Positions 3,503 through 57,993 of a DNA stretch of 64,000 bases are shown one piece after another. Source of the DNA: Parasphaerochaeta coccoides DSM 17374 (lineage in GTDB: Bacteria; Spirochaetota; Spirochaetia; Sphaerochaetales; Sphaerochaetaceae); assembly GCF_000208385.1 (NCBI RefSeq), contig NC_015436.1, positions 992,001 to 1,056,000 of the forward strand. Reading direction: 5' to 3'. Made by a program: the position numbers and the translations under genes. The notes beneath the pieces are model-generated. The model saw nothing but the letters and a program-made list of their open reading frames with translations, ran no database searches and had not been told where the DNA came from. Numbering within the stretch: the first letter of the stretch is position 1; each line of letters opens with the position of its first letter.

Positions 3503-4505
3503 TACTTATGAAAAGTATAAAGAAAAAATCCTGCGCCACATAGACTGGACGTTGACCGAAACCAACCTTCCCTATCCGAACAGGAAAGTCGGCAAAGTGC
3601 GGGACCGCTATGATTTAGGCAATGGTCGTCTGCTTTTTGTGACTACCGACCGCCAGAGTGCCTTTGACAGAGTTCTCGCTTCAATCCCTTTCAAGGGACA
3701 AGTCCTCAATATGGTCAGCGCATGGTGGTTCGCACGTACCAAAGATATCATAGGAAACCATCTGCTTTCTACTCCCGACCCCTGCGTCACCATATCCCGT
3801 GCCTGTACGGTTCTGCCCATTGAATTTGTAGTCCGGGGATACATCACCGGCAGCACTGATACCTCTCTGTGGACGCACTACAAAAAGGGGGAAAGGACAT
3901 ACTGCGGCGTGAATTTCCCTGACGGATTGAAAAAGAACCAGAAGCTGGAACAGCCAGTGATTACGCCTACCACCAAGGAAGATGCCCATGACAGGCCGAT
4001 TAGCCCCGCCGAAATCATAGAAGAAGGCTGGCTAAGTCAGAATGACTGGGACGAAGCATCCGCCGCCGCCCTTGCCCTGTTCCGCTTTGGCACGGAAGAA
4101 GCCGCCAAGAAGGGACTCATCCTCGTGGATACCAAGTATGAGTTCGGTCGTGATGCCGACGGTATCCTCCGGCTCATCGATGAAATACATACCCCGGACT
4201 CATCCCGCTACTGGTTGGGAGACAGCTATGAAAATCGTTTTGCCACGGGACATGAACCGGAAAACATAGACAAGGAGTTTCTCAGGCTTTGGTTCACCAA
4301 GGTCTGCGACCCCTACAAGGATGAAGTACTGCCCCCTGCGCCAATGGATTTGGTCGCCGAGCTTTCCACCCGCTACATCCGGCTCTATGAGATGATTACG
4401 GGAGAGAAGTTCATTTTCCCTGATGAAGACAGCATGAAGGAAAGTCCCTATGAACGGCTGACGCGGAACTTGAGCGCAGCATTGGAAGTCAAACGGGAAG
4501 CGTGA
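3495..4505 (+). CDS. purC: SAICAR synthase
   Basis: The enzyme joins CAIR and aspartate using ATP to give SAICAR (step 8). It is 336 residues, the longer form resembling yeast Ade1 rather than the 240-residue E. coli type. Visible motifs are GKVRDRYDLG at the N terminus, VVRGYITGSTDTSLWTHY, the ATP-site LVDTKYEFG and the DEIHTPDSSRYW metal/substrate loop. Of the candidate starts, the ATG at 3495 is preferred: AGAGGA ends 9 bp before it, whereas the ATG at 3489 would leave only 3 bp. The first 8 bp overlap the end of purQ. Confidence 0.96.
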   Translation: MPDTYEKYKEKILRHIDWTLTETNLPYPNRKVGKVRDRYDLGNGRLLFVTTDRQSAFDRVLASIPFKGQVLNMVSAWWFARTKDIIGNHLLSTPDPCVTISRACTVLPIEFVVRGYITGSTDTSLWTHYKKGERTYCGVNFPDGLKKNQKLEQPVITPTTKEDAHDRPISPAEIIEEGWLSQNDWDEASAAALALFRFGTEEAAKKGLILVDTKYEFGRDADGILRLIDEIHTPDSSRYWLGDSYENRFATGHEPENIDKEFLRLWFTKVCDPYKDEVLPPAPMDLVAELSTRYIRLYEMITGEKFIFPDEDSMKESPYERLTRNLSAALEVKREA

Positions 4506-4554
4506 CAGCTTTGGAAACTGATCCAAGGCTCCTTGAAAAGATTGGAGGAAGCAC

Positions 4555-5031
4555 ATGGCTGAAATAGTCATCATCATGGGTTCGGAATCCGACCGCCCCC
4601 ATGCGGAAAAAATAAGTACGGCACTGAAAGCAGAAGGCTATGCAAAGCCTGTCGGGATACATGTGGCATCCGCTCACAAACAACCAAGGGATGTTCTGAA
4701 AGTCCTTGAGAAAAACGCAGGACGGAAGGTTGTCTACATCACTATTGCGGGACGTTCCAATGCCCTGAGCGGATTCGTAGCGGGTAACTGCGACGCTCCG
4801 GTAATCGCCTGTCCTCCCTTCTCTGACAAACTCGATATGCTGGTGAACATCAACTCCACCCTCCAGATGCCCAGCCGTGTACCGGTGCTTACCGTACTTG
4901 ACCCTGCCAACGCCGCCTTGGGAGCCATGCGCATCATTGCGCTGGATGACCTCGATGAACAAAAAAAGCGGGATAGACAGGACGGACAGGTCAAGCAAAA
5001 GTCATGCGAGGAAACCTCATGTGCGGAATAG
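4555..5031 (+). CDS. purE: Class II PurE, AIR carboxylase (CO2-dependent)
   Basis: PurE forms CAIR. The 158-residue protein has the family glycine loop GSESDRPHAEK and SAHKQP. The signature is AGRSNALSG followed by PVIACPP and LQMPSRVPVLTVLDPANAAL. The AGRSN...CPP pattern is that of the animal PAICS AIR carboxylase and the Treponema denticola enzyme, which use CO2 directly. Ordinary bacterial N5-CAIR mutases have AGGAAHLPG. No purK lies in the operon, as expected for class II. The last residues overlap the purF start. Confidence 0.93.
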   Translation: MAEIVIIMGSESDRPHAEKISTALKAEGYAKPVGIHVASAHKQPRDVLKVLEKNAGRKVVYITIAGRSNALSGFVAGNCDAPVIACPPFSDKLDMLVNINSTLQMPSRVPVLTVLDPANAALGAMRIIALDDLDEQKKRDRQDGQVKQKSCEETSCAE

Positions 5032-6488
5032 TCGGCATGTTCAGCAATCACGATGTGGCGGCAGAGCTGTATGACAGCCTGATCCAACTCCAGCATCGCG
5101 GCCAGGATTCCGCCGGAATCTTGACCAGCGACTCCCAGCTTCATGCCAAGCGAGGCACAGGGTTGGTCAGGGACATCTTCCAGGATGAGGACATGGAAAA
5201 GCTGACCGGCGACATAGGCATCGGTCATACCCGTTATCCTACCAGCGGAACCCGCCAAGGTTTTGATGAAGTCCAGCCTTTCACCACCAGCGTTCCCTTC
5301 GGCATGGCACTGGTCCATAACGGCAACATAGTCAACTATGCACAGCTTCGCGATGAAATCATCATCCGTCGCAACCGCTATCTCAACACTCACAGCGACA
5401 GCGAGATGCTTCTCCAGCTCTTTGCGGATTCCCTCCAGCGTGCCATGATTCGTTCACGGGGACACAGCAACCCCACGGGCAAGATAGAATCTGATGAAGA
5501 TTTCTTTTCCCTCATACGACTGGCCGTCGCAGACATCTTTTCACTTGCCAAAGGCTCAATCTCCGCGCTCTCCGTCATAAACGGCAAAGGAATCGTGGCG
5601 ATGCGCGACCCGTATGGCGTGCGCCCTCTGGTGATGGGAGAACGGGTCTCCGCCGAAGGCAAGTCTGAATATATTTTTGCCAGCGAAGATACCATGTTCT
5701 ATATGCTCGGTTTCACGCTGGTGCGCGATGTCCTGCCAGGTGAAGTAATCTACGTAAGCATGGACGGAATTCTCCATAGCGCCATCATTGAGGAAAAACC
5801 ATTCTGTCCCTGCATTTTTGAATATGTCTATTTTGCCCGTCCTGATGCCATGCTGAACAATGTCAGCGTCTACCGTGCCCGGCTGAGGATGGGTCAAAAT
5901 CTGGGACAAGAATGGATCAGAACCTTTGGTGATGTCCGTCCTGATGTCATTATTCCCGCCCCATCTACAGCGAATACCATGGCGCTTGCCATGGCGCGGG
6001 AACTTGGCGTGAACTATTCGGAAGGTCTGTACAAGAACCCCTTCATCGGGCGAACTTTCATCATGCCTTCTCAAGCAATGCGCAGGCAGTCTGTCCGCTA
6101 CAAGCTGTCGCCGCAACGCATAGAAATACGCAACAAGAATGTGCTGATAGTCGATGACAGCATTGTGCGCGGTACGACGAGCAAGGAAATCGTGTCAATG
6201 ATTCGAGACTTCGGTGCCAACCAAGTATGGTTTGCCAGCGCTTGCCCTCCTGTGGTCAGTCCCTGTCATTATGGCGTAGACATTCCAACCGCAGAGGAAT
6301 TGATAGCAAACAGGCAAACCCAAGAAGAAGTTCGGAACTTCCTGGGCGTCGAAAAGCTACTCTATCTATCCATTGAAGCTCTAATCGAAGCAGTCACACG
6401 CAAAGGCAGGCACAATATGAGCAGTCCTTGCCATGTCTGTTTGGGAGGCCCACATTTCATTTCAGGAGAAAAAGATGGAATTGCATAA
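5019..6488 (+). CDS. purF: Amidophosphoribosyltransferase, Fe-S type by cysteine pattern
   Basis: PurF catalyses the first committed step, PRPP plus glutamine to phosphoribosylamine. With the start at 5019 the protein is 489 residues and begins MCGIVG, so Cys2 becomes the N-terminal nucleophile after Met removal. GAGGAA lies 5-7 bp before this ATG; the upstream in-frame ATG at 5004 lacks a site and would add MRGNL. The PRPP motif is VLIVDDSIVRGTTS. Cys265, Cys416, Cys471 and Cys474 line up with the four [4Fe-4S] ligands of the Bacillus enzyme, with the same 55- and 3-residue spacing at the end. That class normally has a cleaved propeptide, which is absent or minimal here. It overlaps purE by 13 bp. 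Confidence 0.96.
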   Translation: MCGIVGMFSNHDVAAELYDSLIQLQHRGQDSAGILTSDSQLHAKRGTGLVRDIFQDEDMEKLTGDIGIGHTRYPTSGTRQGFDEVQPFTTSVPFGMALVHNGNIVNYAQLRDEIIIRRNRYLNTHSDSEMLLQLFADSLQRAMIRSRGHSNPTGKIESDEDFFSLIRLAVADIFSLAKGSISALSVINGKGIVAMRDPYGVRPLVMGERVSAEGKSEYIFASEDTMFYMLGFTLVRDVLPGEVIYVSMDGILHSAIIEEKPFCPCIFEYVYFARPDAMLNNVSVYRARLRMGQNLGQEWIRTFGDVRPDVIIPAPSTANTMALAMARELGVNYSEGLYKNPFIGRTFIMPSQAMRRQSVRYKLSPQRIEIRNKNVLIVDDSIVRGTTSKEIVSMIRDFGANQVWFASACPPVVSPCHYGVDIPTAEELIANRQTQEEVRNFLGVEKLLYLSIEALIEAVTRKGRHNMSSPCHVCLGGPHFISGEKDGIA

Positions 6489-8451
6489 CATCATTGTCGT
6501 CGGCTCCGGGGCCCGCGAACATGCCATTGCCCTTGCCATATACCGTTCCTTGGAAAAAAAACGGAATGGAAAGCTTCATTGTTTCGGCAGCACCTACAAT
6601 CCCGGAATCGGCAGGCTTTGCTCCGCCATAGGCGGCTCATATGCGGCTGGCGTCATCACCGACGGGCAAGCTGTCCTCTCATTCGCCCGCTCCATCGAAG
6701 CAACCATGGCTGTAATCGGCCCTGAAGCTCCTCTGGAGACGCGGGTGGCGGATGTCCTGCGTCGGGCAGGCATCCCGACTTTCGGCCCCGGCGCGTCATG
6801 CGCTCGCATTGAGACCAGCAAGTCCTTTGCCAGAGAATTTCTGTCAGTCCGCCTCCCCCAGCATTCCCCCCGACATTACGTCGTCTCGTCGCTTGATGAA
6901 GCCCGTGCCGCCATGGAGGAGCTGGATGGTTTCTTCGTCGTCAAGGCGGATGGTCTGGCCGGCGGCAAGGGAGTGAAGGTGTCCCAAGAGCATCTCCACG
7001 GCATTGACGAGGCATTGGATTTCTGCGCCCAGCTGTTGAAGAACTCCGGACGACCTTTCGTCATAGAAGAAAAGCTTTACGGAGAGGAATTTTCCCTGAT
7101 GAGCATTACGGACGGAGAAACCTGCTATCACCTGCCCGCCATCCAGGATCACAAGAGGGCGTATGACGGAGATACAGGGCCTAATACCGGAGGCATGGGT
7201 AGCTACAGTTGCGCTGATGGTTCGCTTCCCTTCCTCTCCCCCGACGACATTGCCCATGCCCGCGCATGCAACGAAGTTGTCATGACCCAGCTGGGAGAAG
7301 TTTGCGGGGAACCATACAGGGGAGTTTTGTATGGTGGTTTCATGGCTGTCAGCGATGGTGTGAAGATCATCGAATACAACGCTCGTTTCGGAGACCCGGA
7401 AGCACTGAACCTGCTGACACTTCTCCAGAGTGACGCGGTGGAACTCTTTCATGCCGCCGCCACGGGACGCCTGAAAAACATTGCCCCTCCTGTCTTTGCT
7501 CCCCTGTCTTCAGTCTGTCTCTACGCCGTCCCTTCTCTCTACCCCATAGCCAGTGAAAAAGGACGCACCATCTCCATAGGAGACATGGATGACGATGTGA
7601 CGCTTTTCCTTGGTTCGATTGATGAGACAAGCGACGGCTCGCTCGTCACAGCAGGCAGTCGTACCGCCGCAGTCACAGCCCTTGCTCCCCACCTCCAGGA
7701 CGCCCGTGAGAAAGCAATCTATAATTTAGGAAAAATCGAAGGTCCCCTCCGCCACCGCAGTGACATTGGAACGGAAGCCTTGCTGGAGAAACGCATCAGG
7801 CACATGAATTTGTTACGGCGTCCAATCCGGCTGGGAATCCTCGGCTCCACCCGTGGCACTGATCTCAAGGCATTGTATTCTTTCATTGAGGACGGCAGCC
7901 TCAACGCTGAGGTCACGGTCGTCGTATCAGACAAAAAAAACTCTGGTATCCTGGAACTCGCCCGTTCCCACGGCACTCCTGCTCATGCTGTCAGCGCCAA
8001 GGGACTGACCCGACAGGAGCATGAGAAGGCCATTTCACTCATCATGGAGGAAGCCGGAGCAGACATCATCATTCTCATCGGTTACATGCGGATAGTGACC
8101 CGCTGCTTCTGCGAAAGCTGGAAGGACAGATTGCTCAATGTCCACCCCTCGCTTCTCCCTGATTTCGCAGGAGGCATGGATACCGACGTGCATGAGGAAG
8201 TCTTACGACGTTACCAGCGCACCGGCAATGACCAGACGGGGTGTACTGTCCATCTTGTCACCCCTGCCGTTGACGGAGGTCCCATCGTACTCCAGAAGAA
8301 ATACTCTATCAAGCCATCTGACACTCCGACGACTCTCAAGGCGGCAATCCAGAAACTGGAAGGTGAAGCATTGAAAGAAGCCATCACCTATTTCCACAGG
8401 ACAGGAGGCTCCGACTGGGACGGTGCTCAGCACACGGGTATCAACCGCTGA
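6475..8451 (+). CDS. purD-purN: Fused GAR synthetase - GAR transformylase (PurD-PurN)
   Basis: The 658-residue protein carries two pathway steps. Residues 1-445 are PurD (ligation of phosphoribosylamine and glycine): VVGSGAREHA at the N terminus, an ATP-grasp with VKADGLAGGKGV, and DHKRAYDGDTGPNTGGMG. Residues about 451-655 are PurN (10-formyl-THF transfer to GAR): LGILGSTRGTDL, then catalytic Asn555 and His557 in NVHPSLLPDFAGG and Asp600 in PAVDGGPIV. The linker is only a few residues. AGGAGAA precedes the ATG at 6475; an upstream in-frame ATG at 6433 lies inside purF and lacks one. PurM, which separates the two domains in animal GART, is a separate gene here. Confidence 0.95.
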   Translation: MELHNIIVVGSGAREHAIALAIYRSLEKKRNGKLHCFGSTYNPGIGRLCSAIGGSYAAGVITDGQAVLSFARSIEATMAVIGPEAPLETRVADVLRRAGIPTFGPGASCARIETSKSFAREFLSVRLPQHSPRHYVVSSLDEARAAMEELDGFFVVKADGLAGGKGVKVSQEHLHGIDEALDFCAQLLKNSGRPFVIEEKLYGEEFSLMSITDGETCYHLPAIQDHKRAYDGDTGPNTGGMGSYSCADGSLPFLSPDDIAHARACNEVVMTQLGEVCGEPYRGVLYGGFMAVSDGVKIIEYNARFGDPEALNLLTLLQSDAVELFHAAATGRLKNIAPPVFAPLSSVCLYAVPSLYPIASEKGRTISIGDMDDDVTLFLGSIDETSDGSLVTAGSRTAAVTALAPHLQDAREKAIYNLGKIEGPLRHRSDIGTEALLEKRIRHMNLLRRPIRLGILGSTRGTDLKALYSFIEDGSLNAEVTVVVSDKKNSGILELARSHGTPAHAVSAKGLTRQEHEKAISLIMEEAGADIIILIGYMRIVTRCFCESWKDRLLNVHPSLLPDFAGGMDTDVHEEVLRRYQRTGNDQTGCTVHLVTPAVDGGPIVLQKKYSIKPSDTPTTLKAAIQKLEGEALKEAITYFHRTGGSDWDGAQHTGINR

Positions 8452-8455
8452 TACC
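8437..8455. repeat. Perfect inverted repeat containing both stop codons of convergent genes
   Basis: GGTATCA-ACCGC-TGATACC is a perfect 7-bp inverted repeat. The TGA in the right arm is the stop of purDN on the plus strand, and the TCA in the left arm is the stop of the outer-membrane protein gene on the minus strand. It has no U-tract on either side, so it is not a classical intrinsic terminator. Confidence 0.8.
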
Positions 8456-9538
8456 AATGCCCACGGAAATGTAACGCGACCGCTGGTAAAAGAAATTGAG
8501 CAGAGGGAAGCGTCCGTCATGATAGAATGCTTCCAAGCGCAGGACACGTCCCGGAATCACGGCCTCAGGAATTTCAAACCCTACTCCAAGGGAGAACTCG
8601 AATTCCCATGGATTGTCGGAATCATACCCACCGACCTGATGCTTTGTCTGCCCATCCTGATGAGCCTGGACATCCGCGGCAATGATGAAGGACGATGAAG
8701 CGACAGGGATACGAAATTCCAATCCGCCATTCAACCTCCATGCTTTGTAGGAAGACGCATAAGAATCAGGACGATAGATTCCTTCCTGTTCGGAAGTCTT
8801 TTGGGCTTGAGTCTTGTCTCCGCCACTGGGAACCTGTGTATGTTCCGGAACATGGACTGCTGGTCGTAACCATGACGTACCCATGGGCAGTTCAGTGTCA
8901 AAATAGAGATGAAACGAGGATGAAGGGCGCACGGATATGCCGGCATACCATGAATTGTCCCGTGTATATTCTACGAAACGGCCATACGTACCAGCAGCCA
9001 GGATTGCATCATCGATGATTTCGTCTCCATAATGCCCGGAAAAATGATGCATTCCGCCACGTATGGTGACTATATCGAAGAAGTCGATTGCTCCATAAAT
9101 ACCATAAGAACCATCGAACCCCAGGACATCGCTTCCGCCGAAAAGCGAGAAAACTGAATTAAGATATCCTGAAAAGCCCGCTTCAAGCCGCACGGGACCC
9201 ATGTTCAGGCGGGCGAGGCTCACATTATCCCCCAGCTTGAGACGCATGAACATGTTTTCATCCTGCAAACTAGTACGGAAACGGACTGGTTCGTATGCGC
9301 CAGGGTTCTCCGGGGAGCTTCCATGCCGTGAGGCCATGATGTCCAGGGGGATTCCTTCCTGAACCCACATCACGCCGACACGGGTATGAGCGCCATAAGG
9401 GTCAGCCATAGCAGAAGGGAACAAGGGTGTTCCCGGAAAAAGCTTGAAAGAAATTGGCGAGGCGGCAAGCAGAGAAGAACATAATAGAACCAAAGATACC
9501 ATGACGAAAAATCGCATAGATTTCCGGTTGTTGCCCAT
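8441..9538 (-). CDS. Outer-membrane beta-barrel protein, DUF1207-like
   Basis: The product is about 365 residues with a signal peptide (basic MGNNRKSMR, hydrophobic FFVMVSLVLLCSSLL, cleavage near AAS). The mature part has alternating hydrophobic strands, many Gly and aromatic residues, and a terminal strand RSRYISVGIGISG, as in outer-membrane barrels. The LFPSAMADPYGAHTRVGV segment recalls DUF1207 proteins; this is from memory and moderate. Three ATG codons follow AGGAG directly, and the third, at 9538, has proper spacing, so it is chosen. The 3' end overlaps purDN by 11 bp. Function and any ligand are unknown. Confidence 0.75.
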   Translation of the reverse strand: MGNNRKSMRFFVMVSLVLLCSSLLAASPISFKLFPGTPLFPSAMADPYGAHTRVGVMWVQEGIPLDIMASRHGSSPENPGAYEPVRFRTSLQDENMFMRLKLGDNVSLARLNMGPVRLEAGFSGYLNSVFSLFGGSDVLGFDGSYGIYGAIDFFDIVTIRGGMHHFSGHYGDEIIDDAILAAGTYGRFVEYTRDNSWYAGISVRPSSSFHLYFDTELPMGTSWLRPAVHVPEHTQVPSGGDKTQAQKTSEQEGIYRPDSYASSYKAWRLNGGLEFRIPVASSSFIIAADVQAHQDGQTKHQVGGYDSDNPWEFEFSLGVGFEIPEAVIPGRVLRLEAFYHDGRFPLLNFFYQRSRYISVGIGISG

Positions 9539-49844: not shown

Positions 49845-51605
49845 CTACTTGTCCTTGAACTTCTCCGCAACCAGGTAACGCTTGATTTTCTTGGTACTGC
49901 TCATTGGCATTGGTTCATCAGTGACCGTCAGACGACTGATCTTCTTGTATGGCGGGAGGTCACGGTTCACCTGAGTGATAATCTCCTGGATACGGGACTC
50001 AATGGCTTTGGCTGCCTCCGCCTCGTCAGAAAGAGCTGAAGCGACTTTCTTCCTGAAGACATCGCTTGGCAGGACAATGGCACGGATGCCCTCGCCTTTC
50101 GTCTTTGGATTGATGATGTACCCTATGATACAAATTTGCTCAATCTCGGTGAAAAGCTGGAACTTATCCTCTATCTCCTCAGGAAAGACGTTCTTTCCTC
50201 CCTCAGTGACAATCAAACTCTTTGAGCGTCCTGTCAGATAAAGATACTTGCCGGCGTCCAGATATCCAACGTCGCCGGTATTCAACCAACCATCAGGGCT
50301 GAGAACCTCGGCGGTCGCCTCCGGATTGTTATAGTAGCCCTGCATGACGACCGGTCCCTTGACCATGATTTCTCCTATGCCGTTGGCATCAGGATTCTTA
50401 ATCTTCATCTCGATTCCGGGAATCATCTTGCCAACTGAATCTTCGATATAGGCATACTGAGGGTTCAGGTTGATGATGGGGCTGGTCTCGGTGAGTCCGT
50501 ATCCTTGCACAAAGTCAATGCCTAGCTCATTGAACATTTTGAAGGTCGATGAAGGCAGCGGGCCGCCGCCACAGATGCAGACACGGTTGTTCTCCAGAGC
50601 TATTTTTTTCAGCAAGAAGCCAAACATCTTTTTCCCCGGATTGACCTTGAATACCTTTTTGATGAAGCCGGATACACCCATCAGTCCACGGATGATGCCA
50701 TACAGGACAATCCCTTTTTCCTTGATACCTGACAAAAGCCCTGACAAGAGCTTGTTGAACAGCATGGGGACACCGAGGAACATGGTGACCTTTCCGTCAC
50801 GCAACTCCTTGAACACATGGCTGATTACCAGCTTCTTACCGAATACGACAGCAGCTCCGACGCTCATCGACTCAAGGAATACTGCAAGCATCGTATACGA
50901 ATGATGAATCGGCAGGATTGCGTAGAATGTGTCAGTATGGGAAAGATTCATGTGTGCTTGGGCGAGATAACAGTCGCTTACTAAATTGTGGTTAGTGAGC
51001 ATGACACCTTTGGGAGTCCCTGTCGTACCGCTGGTGAACATGATGGCGGCAAGGTCTGCAATTTTGGTCTCCGGATATACGGGAGCCGATGAACCCGCCA
51101 AATCCAGCACATAAGGATGCGGGCTACCGGGTGTCTTCTCCAGGGAAATCCTTTCGACAAGTCCCAGGGAGCCGTCCTTGTCAATCAGATCAATACGTTC
51201 TTCATCGACAAACAGGCGGGTGGCGCCGGAAAACTTGATGAACTTCTCGATATCCACGTCATGAAGGGAATAATCAAGCGGCACAATCACAGCCCCGACA
51301 GTCGCTATAGCCAGATAAGACAATGCCCATTCCGGACTGTTCTTACCAGTCAGGGCAATTTTGTCACCAGGCTTCACCCCGGTTTCCTGAAGATACGCCG
51401 CGATGGCATCGATTTTGTCCTTCGCTTCATTATAGGTAAAAAGAATATGCTCAGGTGAGAAGGCCTCAAAGCAACGCCTGTCGGGAAACCTGTGGGCAGT
51501 AATGCGGAACATCTGGGACAAGGTAGGCCACTCCTCGGTAAAGAACTCTCCCTTGTAGTTTTGGAGAAAGTCCCACGGCGTATGATTCCATTTCTTCTTT
51601 CCCAT
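49845..51605 (-). CDS. AMP-forming acyl-CoA synthetase, second copy
   Basis: A 586-residue long-chain acyl-CoA synthetase-like enzyme, paralogous to the one at 29.9-31.7 kb. Its motifs are FTSGTTGTPKG, GYGLTETSP, WLNTGDVGYL, GRSKSLIVTEGGKNVFPEE and the catalytic Lys region SSTKKIKRY. The ATG at 51605, after GGGGAGA with 9 bp spacing, is preferred over 51611 and the unsupported longer frame. It precedes yhbY by 10 bp. Substrate unknown; no beta-oxidation genes are near, so it may serve lipid uptake and phospholipid synthesis. Confidence 0.92.
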   Translation of the reverse strand: MGKKKWNHTPWDFLQNYKGEFFTEEWPTLSQMFRITAHRFPDRRCFEAFSPEHILFTYNEAKDKIDAIAAYLQETGVKPGDKIALTGKNSPEWALSYLAIATVGAVIVPLDYSLHDVDIEKFIKFSGATRLFVDEERIDLIDKDGSLGLVERISLEKTPGSPHPYVLDLAGSSAPVYPETKIADLAAIMFTSGTTGTPKGVMLTNHNLVSDCYLAQAHMNLSHTDTFYAILPIHHSYTMLAVFLESMSVGAAVVFGKKLVISHVFKELRDGKVTMFLGVPMLFNKLLSGLLSGIKEKGIVLYGIIRGLMGVSGFIKKVFKVNPGKKMFGFLLKKIALENNRVCICGGGPLPSSTFKMFNELGIDFVQGYGLTETSPIINLNPQYAYIEDSVGKMIPGIEMKIKNPDANGIGEIMVKGPVVMQGYYNNPEATAEVLSPDGWLNTGDVGYLDAGKYLYLTGRSKSLIVTEGGKNVFPEEIEDKFQLFTEIEQICIIGYIINPKTKGEGIRAIVLPSDVFRKKVASALSDEAEAAKAIESRIQEIITQVNRDLPPYKKISRLTVTDEPMPMSSTKKIKRYLVAEKFKDK

Positions 51606-51848
51606 CTGCATGTCTCCCCGTGCTTGTTCTGCCCATGACAAGCAATGTCTTATAGCACCATTACATGATACACATTCTTTGAAAAAACTCAATGACATAA
51701 AATCAAAATATGTCAATTTGTCAGTTACAAAACCTATCCAGGCACTATCAGGTATCTGGTTCAGGTATCCACCCAGGCATCAAGTCCGGCAGAAGTCGTT
51801 GACCTTGCACTCATGTCCATATTAGAGTGGCACGGGGGAAAATCAGGC

Positions 51849-53231
51849 ATGAGTTTCACAACCTTTGAGAACGTCGTCTCCTGGCTTGACGGCCAGATGA
51901 ACCTGGAGAAGCTGACCACAGGATATACCAAACGGACGTACAGGCTGGACAGGATGCATGCCCTGCTCGACCATCTTGGACACCCGGAGGCGACTTTCAA
52001 GTCAATCCATGTTGCTGGTTCCAAGGGCAAAGGCTCTACCGCCGCTTTCATAGCCAGCGGGCTCAGCGCGCTCGGACATCGGACGGGACTCTATATGTCT
52101 CCCCACGTAAGCGATTACCGGGAAAGGTTCACACGTGCCGGACAGTTCTTCCCAGATGCTGAAATCATCGCGGCGGCAGACGCTCTCCATGAGGCGATAC
52201 AGGACTTCCACTTCTCCGACCAGTGGGGTTCGGAGGCTCCCACGACCTTTGAGCTGTATACCAGCCTGGCGTATATGTTGTTTGCGCGTAGCGGATGCTC
52301 ATGGGCGGTCATCGAGACTGGACTGGGCGGCAGGTTGGATGCCACCAACACGCTGATGCCGGAAGCGGCGGTCCTCTGCCCTATTGAACTGGAACATACA
52401 TCCATCCTGGGTTCAACCTTATCCCAGATAGCCATTGAGAAATCCAAGATTATCATGCCGGGCAGACCTGTGTTCGTTTCCTTCCAGTCACAGGAAGCCA
52501 TGGACGTATTCACGGCGGAAGCCCATGCGCAAGGAAGCGACATGACGACTCTTGCCAGGGAAACATCCTGCATCTCGGCGAAGACGACAAAAGAGGGGGA
52601 ATTGGTTGACATTACGTGGAAGGATGGACAACTGACCCGCATGCGGCTCAGCATGATGGGGGAAGTCCAGGCGGAGAATTGCGCCCTTGCCCTGCTCGTC
52701 CTTAAGAAGCTGGGACAGTACCAGGCGGGGAAGACGGAGGCGGCATTGGAGACATGCCTGCTCCCCGGACGTTTCCAAGTACTTGCAGGATGCGGCACCC
52801 CCCTTTACATCGATGGCGCGCATACCGTCAACAGTCTGACGCGTCTAATGCATTCCTTCAAGGAAATTCACGATGAAACGAAAACCACAGTCATTTATGG
52901 CGCTCTCCTGGATAAAGATCATGACCACATGACGCGCATCATCCTTGAAACAGCACATACCATCATTGTCTCGACACCCGGCCATTTCAAGAAAAGTGAT
53001 CCTGATGCGTTGTACGCGACCTTCAGGAAAAATGCGCAGGATATGGGACGGGATAGTGATATACTCCTGATTAAAGACGCACGGGACGCTTTGGAGGAAG
53101 CATTCAGGATTACGCCACAGGACGGAGCAATCCTATCATGCGGTTCCTTCTATCTTGCGGGGGACATCCGTCAGGCATATGATGGACTCATGGAAAGCAT
53201 GGAGAAAGGACGGGAGACCGCATGTCCCTGA
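51849..53231 (+). CDS. folC: Folylpolyglutamate synthase / dihydrofolate synthase
   Basis: Mur-ligase-fold enzyme adding glutamate to folates (and probably dihydropteroate). It is 460 residues from the ATG at 51849. The N-terminal P-loop is HVAGSKGKGSTAAF, and LSPHVSD-type folate motif appears as MSPHVSDYRERF; the Mur signatures continue with ETGLGGRLDATN and IELEHTSILG, and the C-terminal Rossmann domain carries YIDGAHT. GGGGGA lies upstream with long spacing; an in-frame ATG at 51813 is an alternative. Its end overlaps the rqcH-like gene by 10 bp. Confidence 0.92.
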   Translation: MSFTTFENVVSWLDGQMNLEKLTTGYTKRTYRLDRMHALLDHLGHPEATFKSIHVAGSKGKGSTAAFIASGLSALGHRTGLYMSPHVSDYRERFTRAGQFFPDAEIIAAADALHEAIQDFHFSDQWGSEAPTTFELYTSLAYMLFARSGCSWAVIETGLGGRLDATNTLMPEAAVLCPIELEHTSILGSTLSQIAIEKSKIIMPGRPVFVSFQSQEAMDVFTAEAHAQGSDMTTLARETSCISAKTTKEGELVDITWKDGQLTRMRLSMMGEVQAENCALALLVLKKLGQYQAGKTEAALETCLLPGRFQVLAGCGTPLYIDGAHTVNSLTRLMHSFKEIHDETKTTVIYGALLDKDHDHMTRIILETAHTIIVSTPGHFKKSDPDALYATFRKNAQDMGRDSDILLIKDARDALEEAFRITPQDGAILSCGSFYLAGDIRQAYDGLMESMEKGRETACP

Positions 53232-54694
53232 ACTGGCGGGAAATTGAAAAGATCCTCTCGGAGCTTGAGCTCGCAGGCTGTCGGTTCGGCAGGATGACTC
53301 AACCGACCTTCTCGTCGGTCGTCTTTGAACTATACGCCCCGGACAGAGCCATGTGGCGGCTTTTCATTGAAATAGGGAACCAAGACGCCCGCATCCATAG
53401 GTTGAGTTCGGATGCACGCCCAAAGGAAGATGAAAAAGTACGGAAGATGGGCAAGAAATTGCGTTTCGTCCAGTTCTTTCATGCCCAGCTGGAGGGAGCC
53501 ATCATAACCGCTGTCAAGCAACAGGAGGGAGACCGTCTCGTCCGCATCTCTTTCCGTGCCGGATGGGGAAACGGTTTTCTGTTCATCCGTCTGTACAGTG
53601 GCGCGGGAGCAAACATCATTGTCACAGGAGAAGACCTGATAATCAAGGATGTTTTGCTACGCAGGCCACAGCGAGGGGAGATTCCTGGAAAACTGTTTGA
53701 GTCTCCGGATTTCTCCATCCCTTCTACCAGTGAAGCAGAAAGGTTCAGTGTACGTGACTACCCTTCTTCTCAGGATTTCAACTCCTTCATTGAGGAAAGC
53801 CATGCCGGTGATGCCATCCAACAGGATGCGCTCGATATTCTCCGTTCCCGTCTGGAAGACCAGCGGGATGCCGCGCTTGCGGACATAGAATCATCCATAC
53901 GCGCCATGGAGCGCAGGAAAGCGGAGAACGAACAACATGAATCCCTCAAGCATACCGCAGATCTGCTGGCGTCACACATCTATCTTATTGGAAAAGGCGC
54001 ACAATGGGTGACGATCAAAGATTGGAGCAGGGAAGATGGACATGAGATGACCATAGCACTCGATCCGCTTGCCTCCCCTTCCGACAATGCGCAAGCATAT
54101 TATGATAAATACCGACGGACAAAAGGTGCCGCGGAACATGCGGAGCGGGAACTTGAGCAGTTGGAACGCCGGAGGAATGAAACCCTTGATTATTATACCG
54201 ACCTGCTCAGGGTGCGTGAGGAAGACCGCAGGGATACAAAGGTACGTTTGAGCCGTGCCCTGAAAAAAGAACCGGCAAAGACTCCAAAGGAAATCGAGAC
54301 AGGCATCATCCGTACCAGCGGAGGCTTCACGTTGATTGCAGGACGAAATGCACGCGAAAATGATGCGCTGCTCCGCACTGCTGTCAAAGGCAATGACTGG
54401 TGGATGCACACCAGAGATGTCCCCGGAGGATATGTCTTCATAAAAAACATACAAGGAAAAACGATTCCTTTGCCGGTTCTACTGGATGCCGCCCAGCTTT
54501 CCGTGTATTTTTCTAAAGTACGGACAGCAACTCACGCCGATGTGTACTACACCCAGGTGAAATATTTGAAAAGAGTGAAAGGCGGGAAGCTGGGATTGGT
54601 CATCCCTACCCAGGAGAAGACTATACATGTAAAGGTGGATGTTTCACGAGTCAAGGAACTGTTGCAAGGAGGAGAGGCCGATGACATTCCATGA
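53222..54694 (+). CDS. NFACT-family protein (RqcH/Fbp-like)
   Basis: Ribosome-quality-control factor of the RqcH/NEMF family, which binds stalled 50S subunits and recruits tRNA-Ala for C-terminal tailing; some members are annotated as fibronectin-binding. It is 490 residues, a compact form. NFACT-N spans about 1-200 and retains Asp104-Arg105 in EGDRLVRISF, aligned with the DR tRNA-contact motif of Bacillus RqcH. A coiled coil follows (about 215-345), then NFACT-R with GRNARENDALLRTAVKGNDW and MHTRDVPGGYVFIK. It overlaps folC by 10 bp and the next gene by 14 bp. Confidence 0.88.
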   Translation: MSLNWREIEKILSELELAGCRFGRMTQPTFSSVVFELYAPDRAMWRLFIEIGNQDARIHRLSSDARPKEDEKVRKMGKKLRFVQFFHAQLEGAIITAVKQQEGDRLVRISFRAGWGNGFLFIRLYSGAGANIIVTGEDLIIKDVLLRRPQRGEIPGKLFESPDFSIPSTSEAERFSVRDYPSSQDFNSFIEESHAGDAIQQDALDILRSRLEDQRDAALADIESSIRAMERRKAENEQHESLKHTADLLASHIYLIGKGAQWVTIKDWSREDGHEMTIALDPLASPSDNAQAYYDKYRRTKGAAEHAERELEQLERRRNETLDYYTDLLRVREEDRRDTKVRLSRALKKEPAKTPKEIETGIIRTSGGFTLIAGRNARENDALLRTAVKGNDWWMHTRDVPGGYVFIKNIQGKTIPLPVLLDAAQLSVYFSKVRTATHADVYYTQVKYLKRVKGGKLGLVIPTQEKTIHVKVDVSRVKELLQGGEADDIP

Positions 54695-55595
54695 AGCGGA
54701 ACATGCGGGAATATTCTATCCGGGGGATAAGACATCCCAGGATCTGATATTCGATGTCTCTGCCAATACGGACGTACAGAATACGGACGTGCAGGATGCC
54801 CTTTCCCGGATATCGAGCCTTTCATCGGGTTTTCCATCGGATTTCCCTGCCGTTGTCATGGTTCCTCAAGCTGCTTGGACATGGACGCTAGCCGATATTC
54901 ATGACGCATTAGGAAGTCTGTCGGCAACACCGGATTTTGAGCTGATTGTCCTCCTTGCCCCGCTCCACGCTCCCGTCATGGAAATTCATCAACCAGCCTT
55001 TGTCTTCAGCCATGGCGCCATCGGAACCCGGACGGCACAGGGCGACATTATGTTTGATATTGCAGCGCGGGGTATCTTGGAAGCACGATTCCCCCGTGAG
55101 TTCTCACTCCAGAATGTGTACTTCACTGAAGAACCGGGAGTGGAATATCTCTTTCCGGTACTGGCCAGGAAATATCCCGGCGTTCCGGTACTTCCCTTGC
55201 TAGCCGGAGATGCCGATGGTCAACGGGTTCGCGCCATGGCGGAGATGCTCAGGATCCTCAATGAAGCACGTCCACGCACGCTTTTCATCATTGCAGGCAA
55301 TCTCAGTGCCGAGGAACACCTGTCCCAAGCACTGGAACATGCCACTGTGCTTCAGGGAGCCATGGAAAATGGAGAAGCCTTGCTTCCGCTACGCGCCGCC
55401 GGAAAAATTTCCAGCGTAGCAACGCCATGGATTGAGGCTGTGCGCAGGATATTTGGCGGAAGATGGCGGTTGTTGACTGTGCGTCAGTCCGATGGGCCAC
55501 GGTTCTGCCATCTGCCAGAAACAGCTCCCGACACATCTCATTCCTCCGTCGTGTGGCATGCGGCGGAAATTCTTACTCAAGGACGTGACTCATGA
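54681..55595 (+). CDS. MEMO-like (AmmeMemoRadiSam B) protein, degenerate active site
   Basis: A 304-residue protein of the MEMO1/AmmeMemoRadiSam-B group, which is a non-haem iron dioxygenase fold of unclear bacterial role. Family traces: EAEHAGIFYPGD at the start (usual xxxGxFYP), MVPQAAWTWTL where PHAGYxYSG is expected, LLAPLHAP in place of GPNHH, and IIAGNLSAEEHLSQ where SSDLSHY is expected. The metal-binding His of PHAGY is Gln here, so activity is doubtful. GGAGGAGAGG before the ATG at 54681 fixes the start. It overlaps the genes on both sides. Confidence 0.7.
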   Translation: MTFHEAEHAGIFYPGDKTSQDLIFDVSANTDVQNTDVQDALSRISSLSSGFPSDFPAVVMVPQAAWTWTLADIHDALGSLSATPDFELIVLLAPLHAPVMEIHQPAFVFSHGAIGTRTAQGDIMFDIAARGILEARFPREFSLQNVYFTEEPGVEYLFPVLARKYPGVPVLPLLAGDADGQRVRAMAEMLRILNEARPRTLFIIAGNLSAEEHLSQALEHATVLQGAMENGEALLPLRAAGKISSVATPWIEAVRRIFGGRWRLLTVRQSDGPRFCHLPETAPDTSHSSVVWHAAEILTQGRDS

Positions 55596-57076
55596 ATCCA
55601 CGGTATCTGCCCTTCATCCAGGAAAAAGATGGCATCCCGGCCACATTCCTCCCGATTGCCCCTCTGGGGGAAAAGTTACCTACATATCTTTTCCAAGGGA
55701 AAAAACAACCCCTCTGGTATATTTCCGGTGATACCATTACCCCGATTTACTGGACAAACATAGTTCCGGCGGGAGATATGCAATGCATCTACTTCGACAG
55801 GCTTGACCTGGAAAGTTTTGAAACGCTGGCATCCTCCCGACGCTCCGAGGCTCTACGGATATTGCAGGATTTCGCCCGCGCTCTCCTGGTACTTGGCAAG
55901 GACATGGTTTCAGTTGAGAACGGCCTTCTTCCCCTCTGGAAGATGTGGATAGTATCAGGCGGAGGATTCCTTGTACTTTCCCGTACCATCAGCGAACTCA
56001 TGGCATCATCCTTGAATGATGACGGCAGGCATGAAGGATGGTATGCATGGGCGACTCCCCGCACCAATCCCGCTTTCACGCTCTGTCATCAGTTCACCCA
56101 GATGCTTTATTTCGCACTCATGGGATTCCCCCCGTTCTTTACTGCCGATACTCGTGAGGACAAGTTCCGTTTCTTCCCTGTCCCGCATGACCTCCATCAC
56201 CCGGAAATGGACAGTACGTGCGACTGGATTAACTCCATGCTGCGCCTTTCCATTCCCCGGCAACAGGACGCAGCAGGCAACAAAAACCCAGTCTCTGCTC
56301 TCTCATGGTGGCTTGAAGCCTCCCGTGATGTGACGTGGACCGTACCGGAACAAGCAGCCGTCACCGTACAGGAAGCACAGCATCGGGCTTCCACGTCTGA
56401 TGAGAAAGCACGGACTTTCTTTGCCCATCAGGTAAAACGGGCTTCTCACAGAAGATTCTGGAGGAAGCGAGGAACTGTTATCATAGCCGTGGTCATTGCC
56501 GTGGCGGCCATAAGCTGGTTTACGGCCGACCGCATCAGGACACTGAACGCTCCGCCTCAAACCGCAGGGTTGGAACCGACAGCAATCATTGCCGATTATT
56601 ATGAAGGTCAGAATGCCTTGGATATCAGCAGGCTTGAAGACAGTCTTGCAAAAGGAGTCAAGAGCCCCTTGAGCTTCGAGTTGACCAATCTCTTTGTAAC
56701 CAGCCGGATGCGTCTTGCCAATGAAAACATTGACCCTCACATGACCCCGGATGAATGGATTGCTTCCGGACGGGAACCTATTCCTGAGACCTACTATGTC
56801 TACGGAGTGACGGATCTCCGCATAGAACGGACGGGGGAGGATTCGTGGCAGGCGATCACGACTTTATATACACCCTATCAGTACGACAGCACGCAGACAT
56901 CCGACAGCGGGACATCTTCCCTTGAGACTCCGAAGGCAGTGACGACCTATGTATATGAGCAGACAACGGACTTTACCTTGGCTTTCTCGGAACGAGGATG
57001 GTGGGAAATCACATCGGTCGGCAATTCCTACATTGAACTCCGCGATGTCATTGAAATTCCCTATATTCCCAGATAA
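55592..57076 (+). CDS. Transmembrane protein, possible pseudokinase with extracytoplasmic domain
   Basis: A 494-residue protein of no family I know. Residues 1-285 are cytoplasmic, one membrane helix is at 294-311 (TVIIAVVIAVAAISWF), and 180 residues lie outside, beta-rich. The cytoplasmic part recalls a protein kinase C-lobe: ILQDFARALLVLGKDMVSVE at 90-109, a strand pair at 112-130, then YAWATPRTN at 151-159 and LYFALMGFPPF at 172-182, like the LYELLTGxPPF of kinases. HRD and DFG are not recognisable, so it would be a pseudokinase; this is inference. It overlaps the MEMO-like gene by ATGA and converges on miaA with 16 bp overlap. Confidence 0.5.
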   Translation: MNPRYLPFIQEKDGIPATFLPIAPLGEKLPTYLFQGKKQPLWYISGDTITPIYWTNIVPAGDMQCIYFDRLDLESFETLASSRRSEALRILQDFARALLVLGKDMVSVENGLLPLWKMWIVSGGGFLVLSRTISELMASSLNDDGRHEGWYAWATPRTNPAFTLCHQFTQMLYFALMGFPPFFTADTREDKFRFFPVPHDLHHPEMDSTCDWINSMLRLSIPRQQDAAGNKNPVSALSWWLEASRDVTWTVPEQAAVTVQEAQHRASTSDEKARTFFAHQVKRASHRRFWRKRGTVIIAVVIAVAAISWFTADRIRTLNAPPQTAGLEPTAIIADYYEGQNALDISRLEDSLAKGVKSPLSFELTNLFVTSRMRLANENIDPHMTPDEWIASGREPIPETYYVYGVTDLRIERTGEDSWQAITTLYTPYQYDSTQTSDSGTSSLETPKAVTTYVYEQTTDFTLAFSERGWWEITSVGNSYIELRDVIEIPYIPR

Positions 57077-57993
57077 ACGTCCACAAGATGCTTGATGCCT
57101 GTGTCATCATCAGGATGCATCCATGTGACATCAGCGAAGCTCCGGAAGAACGTGTACTGTCGTTTGGCATAGAGATGGCAATTTCTGGCAATCTGGGTTG
57201 CTATACCGGAATGTGTCATCTCCCCGCCACGCATGGCCTGGAAAAATTCCCGATACCCAATGCCTTGCATGCTCGGCCAGGAAGAAACAGCACCCATCAT
57301 GAGCAAGCGGCGCATTTCATCCTCAAGTCCTTCCTCGAACATCGCCTTGACCCGCTGGGCTATGCGTTCCTTCAAATCATCACGTTCCCTTTCCAGTCCG
57401 ATGATCAAGGGCTTCATCCCATGCCGAGGGCCATCAGGCACGGTGAAGGATGAGAGTGGCCGGCCAGTGCTTTGCCAAACCTCCAAGGCACGCAGGATGC
57501 GCTGGGTATCGGATGGATGTATGCGCACGGCACTAACAGGATCAACTTCAGCAAGCCACTGGTGACACCATGCCAGTCCTTTTTCTTCTTTGATGCCAGC
57601 TATTTCATTCCGTATCCGGGAATCGGCAGGAGGCGCTTCGCTCAGGCCATGCAAGAAATGTTTGAAGTAATACGCCGTTCCTCCGGTCAGTACGGGGATA
57701 TCTCCCTTGGATGCTATGCGGATGACTGCTTCATCCGCCATACGGACGAAGGTTCCGACAGAAAACTGTTCCCATGGCTCTGCTACGTCCAGCAATTCAT
57801 GCGGAACCAAGGATTGAAGCTGCCGGGAGGGTTTGGCGGAACCAATGTCAAGATGTCGGTATACTTGGATGGAATCAGCGTTAATCACCCCGTATCCATG
57901 ACGAAAAAGACGGGGCAGAAGTCCCGTCTTTCCTACGCCCGTGGGGCCAAAAAGAAAAATAATCCTGGAAAAATACGCAGTCTCAGTTGCCAC
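57061..57993 (-). CDS. miaA: tRNA dimethylallyltransferase
   Basis: The enzyme isopentenylates A37 of tRNAs reading U-initial codons. It is 310 residues: P-loop LFGPTGVGKTG at the N terminus, NADSIQVYRHLDIGSAKPS, LTGGTAYYFKHFLHG, and MQGIGYREFFQ near the tRNA-binding end. The start is a GTG at 57993, which overlaps the rpoZ stop by 11 bp. The 3' end overlaps the convergent pseudokinase-like gene by 16 bp. It is second gene of the rpoZ-miaA pair. Confidence 0.95.
   Translation of the reverse strand: MATETAYFSRIIFLFGPTGVGKTGLLPRLFRHGYGVINADSIQVYRHLDIGSAKPSRQLQSLVPHELLDVAEPWEQFSVGTFVRMADEAVIRIASKGDIPVLTGGTAYYFKHFLHGLSEAPPADSRIRNEIAGIKEEKGLAWCHQWLAEVDPVSAVRIHPSDTQRILRALEVWQSTGRPLSSFTVPDGPRHGMKPLIIGLERERDDLKERIAQRVKAMFEEGLEDEMRRLLMMGAVSSWPSMQGIGYREFFQAMRGGEMTHSGIATQIARNCHLYAKRQYTFFRSFADVTWMHPDDDTGIKHLVDVYLGI

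Follow-up and report, generated by a model that had tools for sequence, protein, structure and literature searches.

The rqcH gene of Parasphaerochaeta coccoides DSM 17374 is embedded in a compact run of four genes in the window (the whole stretch of 64,000 nucleotides analysed here), and this raises the question whether its neighbours, a Memo-like gene and a membrane-protein gene called p4 hereafter, take part in ribosome quality control (RQC) or are only transcribed along with it. The first-pass annotation had described overlaps between all four genes, and the open reading frame calls gave overlaps of exactly 10, 14 and 4 bp, with every gene on the plus strand. The features are the following, in window coordinates:

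51849–53231, plus strand: folC, bifunctional folylpolyglutamate/dihydrofolate synthase, first gene of the unit (TIGR01499, 326 bits)
53222–54694, plus strand: rqcH, with NFACT-N, coiled coil/M and NFACT-R but without HhH (Pfam; best solved relatives B. subtilis RqcH 7as8 and 7aqc)
53531–53536, plus strand: codons of Asp104-Arg105, the tRNA-Ala motif of RqcH (sequence and comparison with B. subtilis D97/R98, PMC8373112)
54681–55595, plus strand: memo, an rqcH-associated Memo paralogue (TIGR04336, AlphaFold2 model, superposition on MEMO1, residue table and tree)
55592–57076, plus strand: p4, membrane-anchored pseudokinase of 494 aa (AlphaFold2 model; no Pfam family)
55592–56341, plus strand: p4 residues 1–250, cytoplasmic protein-kinase-like domain without VAIK, HRD and DFG (VIA-align, motif check)
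56471–56527, plus strand: p4 residues 294–312, single transmembrane span, N-terminus predicted inside (hydropathy and charge)
56576–57067, plus strand: p4 residues 329–492, predicted extracytoplasmic alpha/beta domain, possibly NTF2-like (Foldseek, conservation)

The TIGR01499 match of the first gene agreed with its earlier assignment to folate polyglutamylation, and the identity of FolC, like that of RqcH, is secure; an additional in-frame ATG of folC lies at position 51813. Shine-Dalgarno-like sequences preceded the starts of memo (CAAGGAGGAGAGGCCG-ATG) and p4 (CAAGGACGTGACTC-ATG). The unit is bordered upstream by a divergent acyl-CoA-synthetase-like gene (49845–51716, minus strand) and downstream by a convergent miaA-like gene (57061–57993, minus strand). 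Since the genes on both flanks are on the opposite strand, folC-rqcH-memo-p4 has the appearance of a single, complete transcription unit.

Single-sequence searches of 139 Sphaerochaetaceae genomes detected rqcH in 127, p4 in 114 and memo in 88. The Memo family was collected with the sequence of the window protein itself because the Pfam Memo model alone missed it. rqcH and p4 were tabulated together for 113 genomes; in 110 of these both genes were on one contig, and all 110 had them within 1.6 kb of each other. In 20 of them the gap was 36–87 bp, leaving no space for memo. The first-pass annotation had considered that its proposal would fall if the neighbours of rqcH differed in close relatives; they were the same, except that these 20 genomes had lost memo and a few had lost p4. 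folC adjoined rqcH in most loci of the family and in several other families. The wider order acyl-CoA synthetase / folC-rqcH-memo-p4 / miaA / cmk / yicC was kept within the family too, and family-level synteny alone is therefore weak evidence. The main rival explanation remains an ancient housekeeping operon, in which folC, rqcH, memo and p4 would be only co-transcribed and translationally coupled, with neither interaction nor joint function. We consider it possible, if rather doubtful: no RQC role is known for folC, the wider order is retained inside the family and p4 or memo is sometimes missing or elsewhere, but rqcH, memo, p4 and in some cases AMMECR1 stay together in at least ten families where that order is mostly gone, and p4 recurs beside a second quality-control pair, hflKC.

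Outside the family, a p4 profile found relatives in 108 of 393 Spirochaetota genomes, and 40 p4 loci from relatives beyond Sphaerochaetaceae were examined. At 16 of these, p4 was beside rqcH, mostly with memo in between (families f2, f6, f7, f11, f16–f19 and f21); with f63 added, at least ten Spirochaetia families outside Sphaerochaetaceae kept the linkage. The outer flanking genes, folC aside, were mostly gone around these loci. An AMMECR1 gene (NCBIfam AmmeMemoSam_A, 167 bits) lay between p4 and either memo or rqcH at L142, L143, L148, L154 and L193, and next to rqcH or one gene away from it in genomes G187, G280, G387, G424, G484, G486 and G502. As AMMECR1 was inside or beside the rqcH operon in at least nine families, the original unit would resemble rqcH-memo-AMMECR1-p4, and the Sphaerochaetaceae operon would be a reduced form of it. 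Ordinary chance adjacency of rqcH and p4 was ruled out by the neighbourhood counts (110 genomes of the family and at least ten other families). The tight unit of rqcH, memo and the membrane-protein gene to which the first-pass annotation had pointed is thus strongly supported by the conserved neighbourhood, in Sphaerochaetaceae and in other families.

The RqcH protein exceeded the cut-offs of the Pfam models NFACT_N (114 bits) and NFACT-R_1 (51 bits). Its Asp-Arg motif is D104-R105; the arginine is invariant and the motif reads D/E/N-R across 19 relatives. These domains and this motif bear out the earlier description of a ribosome-rescue factor of the RqcH type, and D97/R98 have the tRNA-Ala motif role in B. 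subtilis RqcH (PMC8373112). A profile of 19 spirochaetal RqcH sequences aligned to the B. subtilis protein in two blocks and left residues ~172–267 of the latter unmatched; where the HhH domain of about 95 residues would be, the 19 sequences had a linker of 33–48 residues. As residues ~172–267 are the HhH domain in B. subtilis, the spirochaetal protein lacks it, and for this reason we call it an RqcH-like variant. NFACT-N and HhH jointly touch the tRNA in B. subtilis RqcH (PMC8012679, PMC8373112). The full-length rqcH profile gave matches of ~1.4–1.5 kb throughout Spirochaetia, including the 0.9–1.9 Mb genomes of family f5, so that loss of HhH is general in the class. No mention of this loss was found in the RqcH literature examined.

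The spirochaetal RqcH thus resembles that of B. subtilis in its NFACT-N domain with Asp-Arg, coiled coil/M and NFACT-R, and differs from it by the missing HhH domain, by sharing its operon with Memo and a membrane pseudokinase, and by the lack of a detected partner similar to RqcP/YlmH. In a search of the window genome with the Pfam S4 model only, which could miss a very divergent protein, no S4 protein of the RqcP/YlmH type was found over threshold; only two proteins exceeded the cut-off, namely a frame of 221 aa whose size suggests RpsD, and one resembling pseudouridine synthases. This is in line with a published survey in which 65% of Spirochaetota genomes had RqcH and neither RqcP nor YlmH (PMC11317155). 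It is conceivable that p4 or the Memo paralogue (alone or with AMMECR1) substitutes for the missing RqcP/YlmH and, in spirochaetes, keeps the P-site tRNA stable during RQC. The survey and the window genome leave room for such a substitute, and the soluble partners encoded closest to rqcH are Memo and AMMECR1. The substitution is nevertheless unlikely, as 20 operons keep rqcH and p4 yet have lost memo, AMMECR1 was not found in the window genome, p4 is membrane-bound, and the candidate role would fall to Memo with no demonstrated RNA-binding feature.

The Memo protein scored 45.5 bits against NCBIfam TIGR04336 (AmmeMemoSam_B; cut-off 26) and stayed below the cut-off of the Pfam Memo model. Its AlphaFold2 model (pLDDT 89) superposed on human MEMO1 with a Z of 28.5 and an rmsd of 2.7 over 263 aligned residues, which identifies the Memo fold. 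The MEMO1 pocket is formed by His49, His81, His192, Asp189 and Cys244, of which His49, His81 and Cys244 are the metal ligands (PMC9477392). In the window protein, His49 is replaced by Gln63, Cys244 by Val246 and Asp189 by Asn207, and His192 is lost; the sole pocket residue kept is His81 (His96). With Q63, H96 and V246 in place of the three ligands, the metal site is indeed degraded, as had been noticed in the first-pass annotation. The Asp189-His192 part of the pocket is altered throughout the rqcH-linked group: all 28 copies tested had Asn at the position of Asp189 and none had His192. Many other rqcH-linked copies kept His49, His81 and Cys244. Canonical copies away from rqcH mostly retained the full MEMO1 pocket, and the D-x-x-H motif was kept in 9 of 11. 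In the Memo tree, most canonical copies were separated from the rqcH-linked ones by a 100/99 branch. Strict monophyly of the rqcH-linked copies is not claimed, as the Asp-type L225 and L227 nested among them.

Many genomes had both Memo types, and the window genome had the rqcH-linked one only. The likeness to Memo/AmmeMemoRadiSam protein B (human MEMO1) thus comprises the fold, TIGR04336 and, in several families, co-operonic AMMECR1; the difference lies in the change of Asp189 to Asn and the loss of His192 in all rqcH-linked copies tested, with His49 and Cys244 also missing from the window copy. The window genome further departs from the AmmeMemoRadiSam system, in which AMMECR1 and a radical-SAM enzyme occur in the same genome: AMMECR1 was not found in it, and no AmmeMemo radical-SAM enzyme was confidently detected (best score 41.8 bits for a cut-off of 220). 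At L228, L229, L231, L232 and L241, canonical Memo formed a separate locus with AMMECR1 adjacent or close by, and in several relatives a radical-SAM gene adjoined such a locus. The window genome has none of these loci.

The p4 protein gave no usable family in Pfam, NCBIfam or PDB sequence searches, and a plasmid search with it returned no match. Its AlphaFold2 model, built with 22 sequences, had a mean pLDDT of 87.6 and a pTM of 0.66. For residues 1–250, all 50 VIA-align matches listed were protein kinases (Z 9.0–10.2, rmsd mostly 4–5 Å), so that the predicted model has a protein-kinase fold, and two distant relatives showed weak Pfam Pkinase matches over the alpha-F region (E 0.025 and 0.062). 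Counterparts of VAIK, HRD and DFG were found in none of 34 aligned relatives, 28 of which had a proline at the DFG region. A catalytic kinase was ruled out on this ground and the protein is a pseudokinase by loss of the catalytic Lys/Asp/Asp motifs; a kinase-type signal is unlikely for the same reason. The 20 residues before the span (about 294–312) contain seven K/R and no D/E, and this strong positive charge in front of a single span would place the kinase-like domain inside. The earlier description of a single-span protein with a kinase-like cytoplasmic part therefore held, by hydropathy and charge and by the predicted fold. In Foldseek, full-length CaMKII gave the best rows (E 1.6e-8), ahead of isolated kinase domains; the scores of both structural comparisons were moderate. 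Since full-length CaMKII includes the association domain, the outer domain of the model may resemble an NTF2-like association domain, which is a suggestion only. The best-kept residues of the family, W389 and G405, are in this outer domain.

A cytoplasmic degenerate kinase domain joined to one span and an outer domain is also the architecture of the EssB/YukC pseudokinase from type VIIb secretion, which has been described as a scaffold and recruiter (PMC12599244). The two differ in gene neighbourhood and in the outer part, which is predicted to be alpha/beta in p4, whereas the C-terminal segment of EssB is helical (PMC3694306). No Pfam match to the YukC/EssB sequence family was obtained for 18 p4 members at E up to 10, and EssB/YukC was not among the structural matches listed for p4, a listing that does not exclude it.

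Occurrence of the Memo-like or membrane genes without rqcH had been named in advance as evidence against a functional tie, and it was encountered in part: canonical Memo was elsewhere in many genomes, p4 was present in G426 and G476 with rqcH undetectable, and p4 was found away from rqcH beside hflK-hflC. The last arrangement concerned 12 of the 40 loci, where p4 was the next gene after hflK-hflC in the Treponema-like families f3 and f8 (L145, L151, L155, L159, L160, L161, L163, L164, L167, L169, L173 and L180), with a 4-bp overlap between hflC and p4 at L164. Six proteins encoded by the SPFH genes upstream of p4 were tested and scored far above cut-off with NCBIfam HflK or HflC. The rqcH and hflKC contexts never occurred in one locus, and another 12 of the 40 loci had neither. 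One of the f3 genomes (L168) had p4 between an AAA-ATPase_like/PDDEXK_9 gene and tgt (7200–8819 and 3976–5106).

HflK and HflC are regulators of the membrane protease FtsH. That p4 often accompanies either an RQC factor or regulators of FtsH proteolysis is the strongest functional hint obtained, and the hflKC context is new relative to the first-pass annotation. The likeness to the HflK-HflC-FtsH system stops at gene order, as p4 has no SPFH identity and is located with rqcH in the window family. The hflKC link suggests membrane scaffolding or delivery rather than stress signalling. It bears on the hypothesis of the first-pass annotation that envelope stress outside the cell is linked to ribosome rescue inside; p4 would then be an envelope-stress sensor whose outer domain detects envelope damage and whose kinase-like domain regulates RqcH. 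The single-span architecture, which resembles that of PASTA kinases and EssB, and the conserved W389 and G405 would suit a sensor; with all three catalytic motifs absent, no ligand known and a gene context indicating protein turnover, such a role seems improbable.

We tentatively favour, at somewhat less than even confidence, a spirochaete variant of RQC in which a pseudokinase bound to the membrane serves as scaffold and Memo as accessory factor. Genome context supports a shared function; the mechanism is our inference. By analogy with B. subtilis, the shortened RqcH would presumably extend nascent chains on split 50S subunits with alanine tails at the C-terminus. p4, a single-span inner-membrane pseudokinase, would offer its cytoplasmic domain as a docking scaffold, the outer domain being an anchor or sensor, and would most likely carry the RqcH complex or the tailed product to the membrane, near HflK/HflC-FtsH proteolysis. 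The Memo paralogue, its canonical pocket lost and often joined by AMMECR1 in the operons of other families, may be an accessory factor that probably binds rather than catalyses. In favour of this RQC variant we counted the rqcH-p4 proximity in all 110 genomes and the linkage in ten other families, AMMECR1 in the operon in at least nine, the kinase fold devoid of catalytic motifs, Asn for Asp189 in every linked Memo tested, RqcH without HhH, and the lack of RqcP/YlmH in the window genome; as p4 follows hflK-hflC in f3 and f8, it follows two protein quality-control systems. On the other side, we know of no interaction or phenotype for RqcH, Memo and p4, nor of an obvious RQC role for folC or AMMECR1, and gene order may outlive function. 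The loss of memo from 20 operons indicates that it is dispensable, many Spirochaetia (e.g., families f4 and f5) have rqcH without p4, and two genomes have the converse.

A dead kinase linked to both rqcH and hflKC suggests a membrane-tethered form of RQC. In its fullest form, Memo/AMMECR1 would replace RqcP/YlmH beside the HhH-less RqcH, and the pseudokinase anchor would pass tailed chains to HflKC-FtsH; this whole scheme is very unlikely to hold in every part. Memo and AMMECR1 are conserved up to humans and, to our knowledge, their molecular functions are unsettled. A conserved operon now joins them to an RQC factor, and their replacing RqcP/YlmH would, if true, be the first direct link of both to ribosome quality control. 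The operon supplies concrete candidates for that task in a lineage whose RqcH is itself shortened. The p4 family, which lacks a Pfam model and alternates between rqcH and hflKC operons, may connect the quality control of the ribosome with that of the membrane.

Minor departures were seen in single genomes. At L028 (G081:C1:288622-292101), rqcH and memo were each in two pieces and p4 was intact, which corresponds to frameshifts or sequencing errors. Genome G393 carried two full-length rqcH copies (C33:73218-74660 and C46:2676-4070), and the reduced 1.1 Mb genome G194 of family f3 had lost rqcH, p4 and AMMECR1 altogether.
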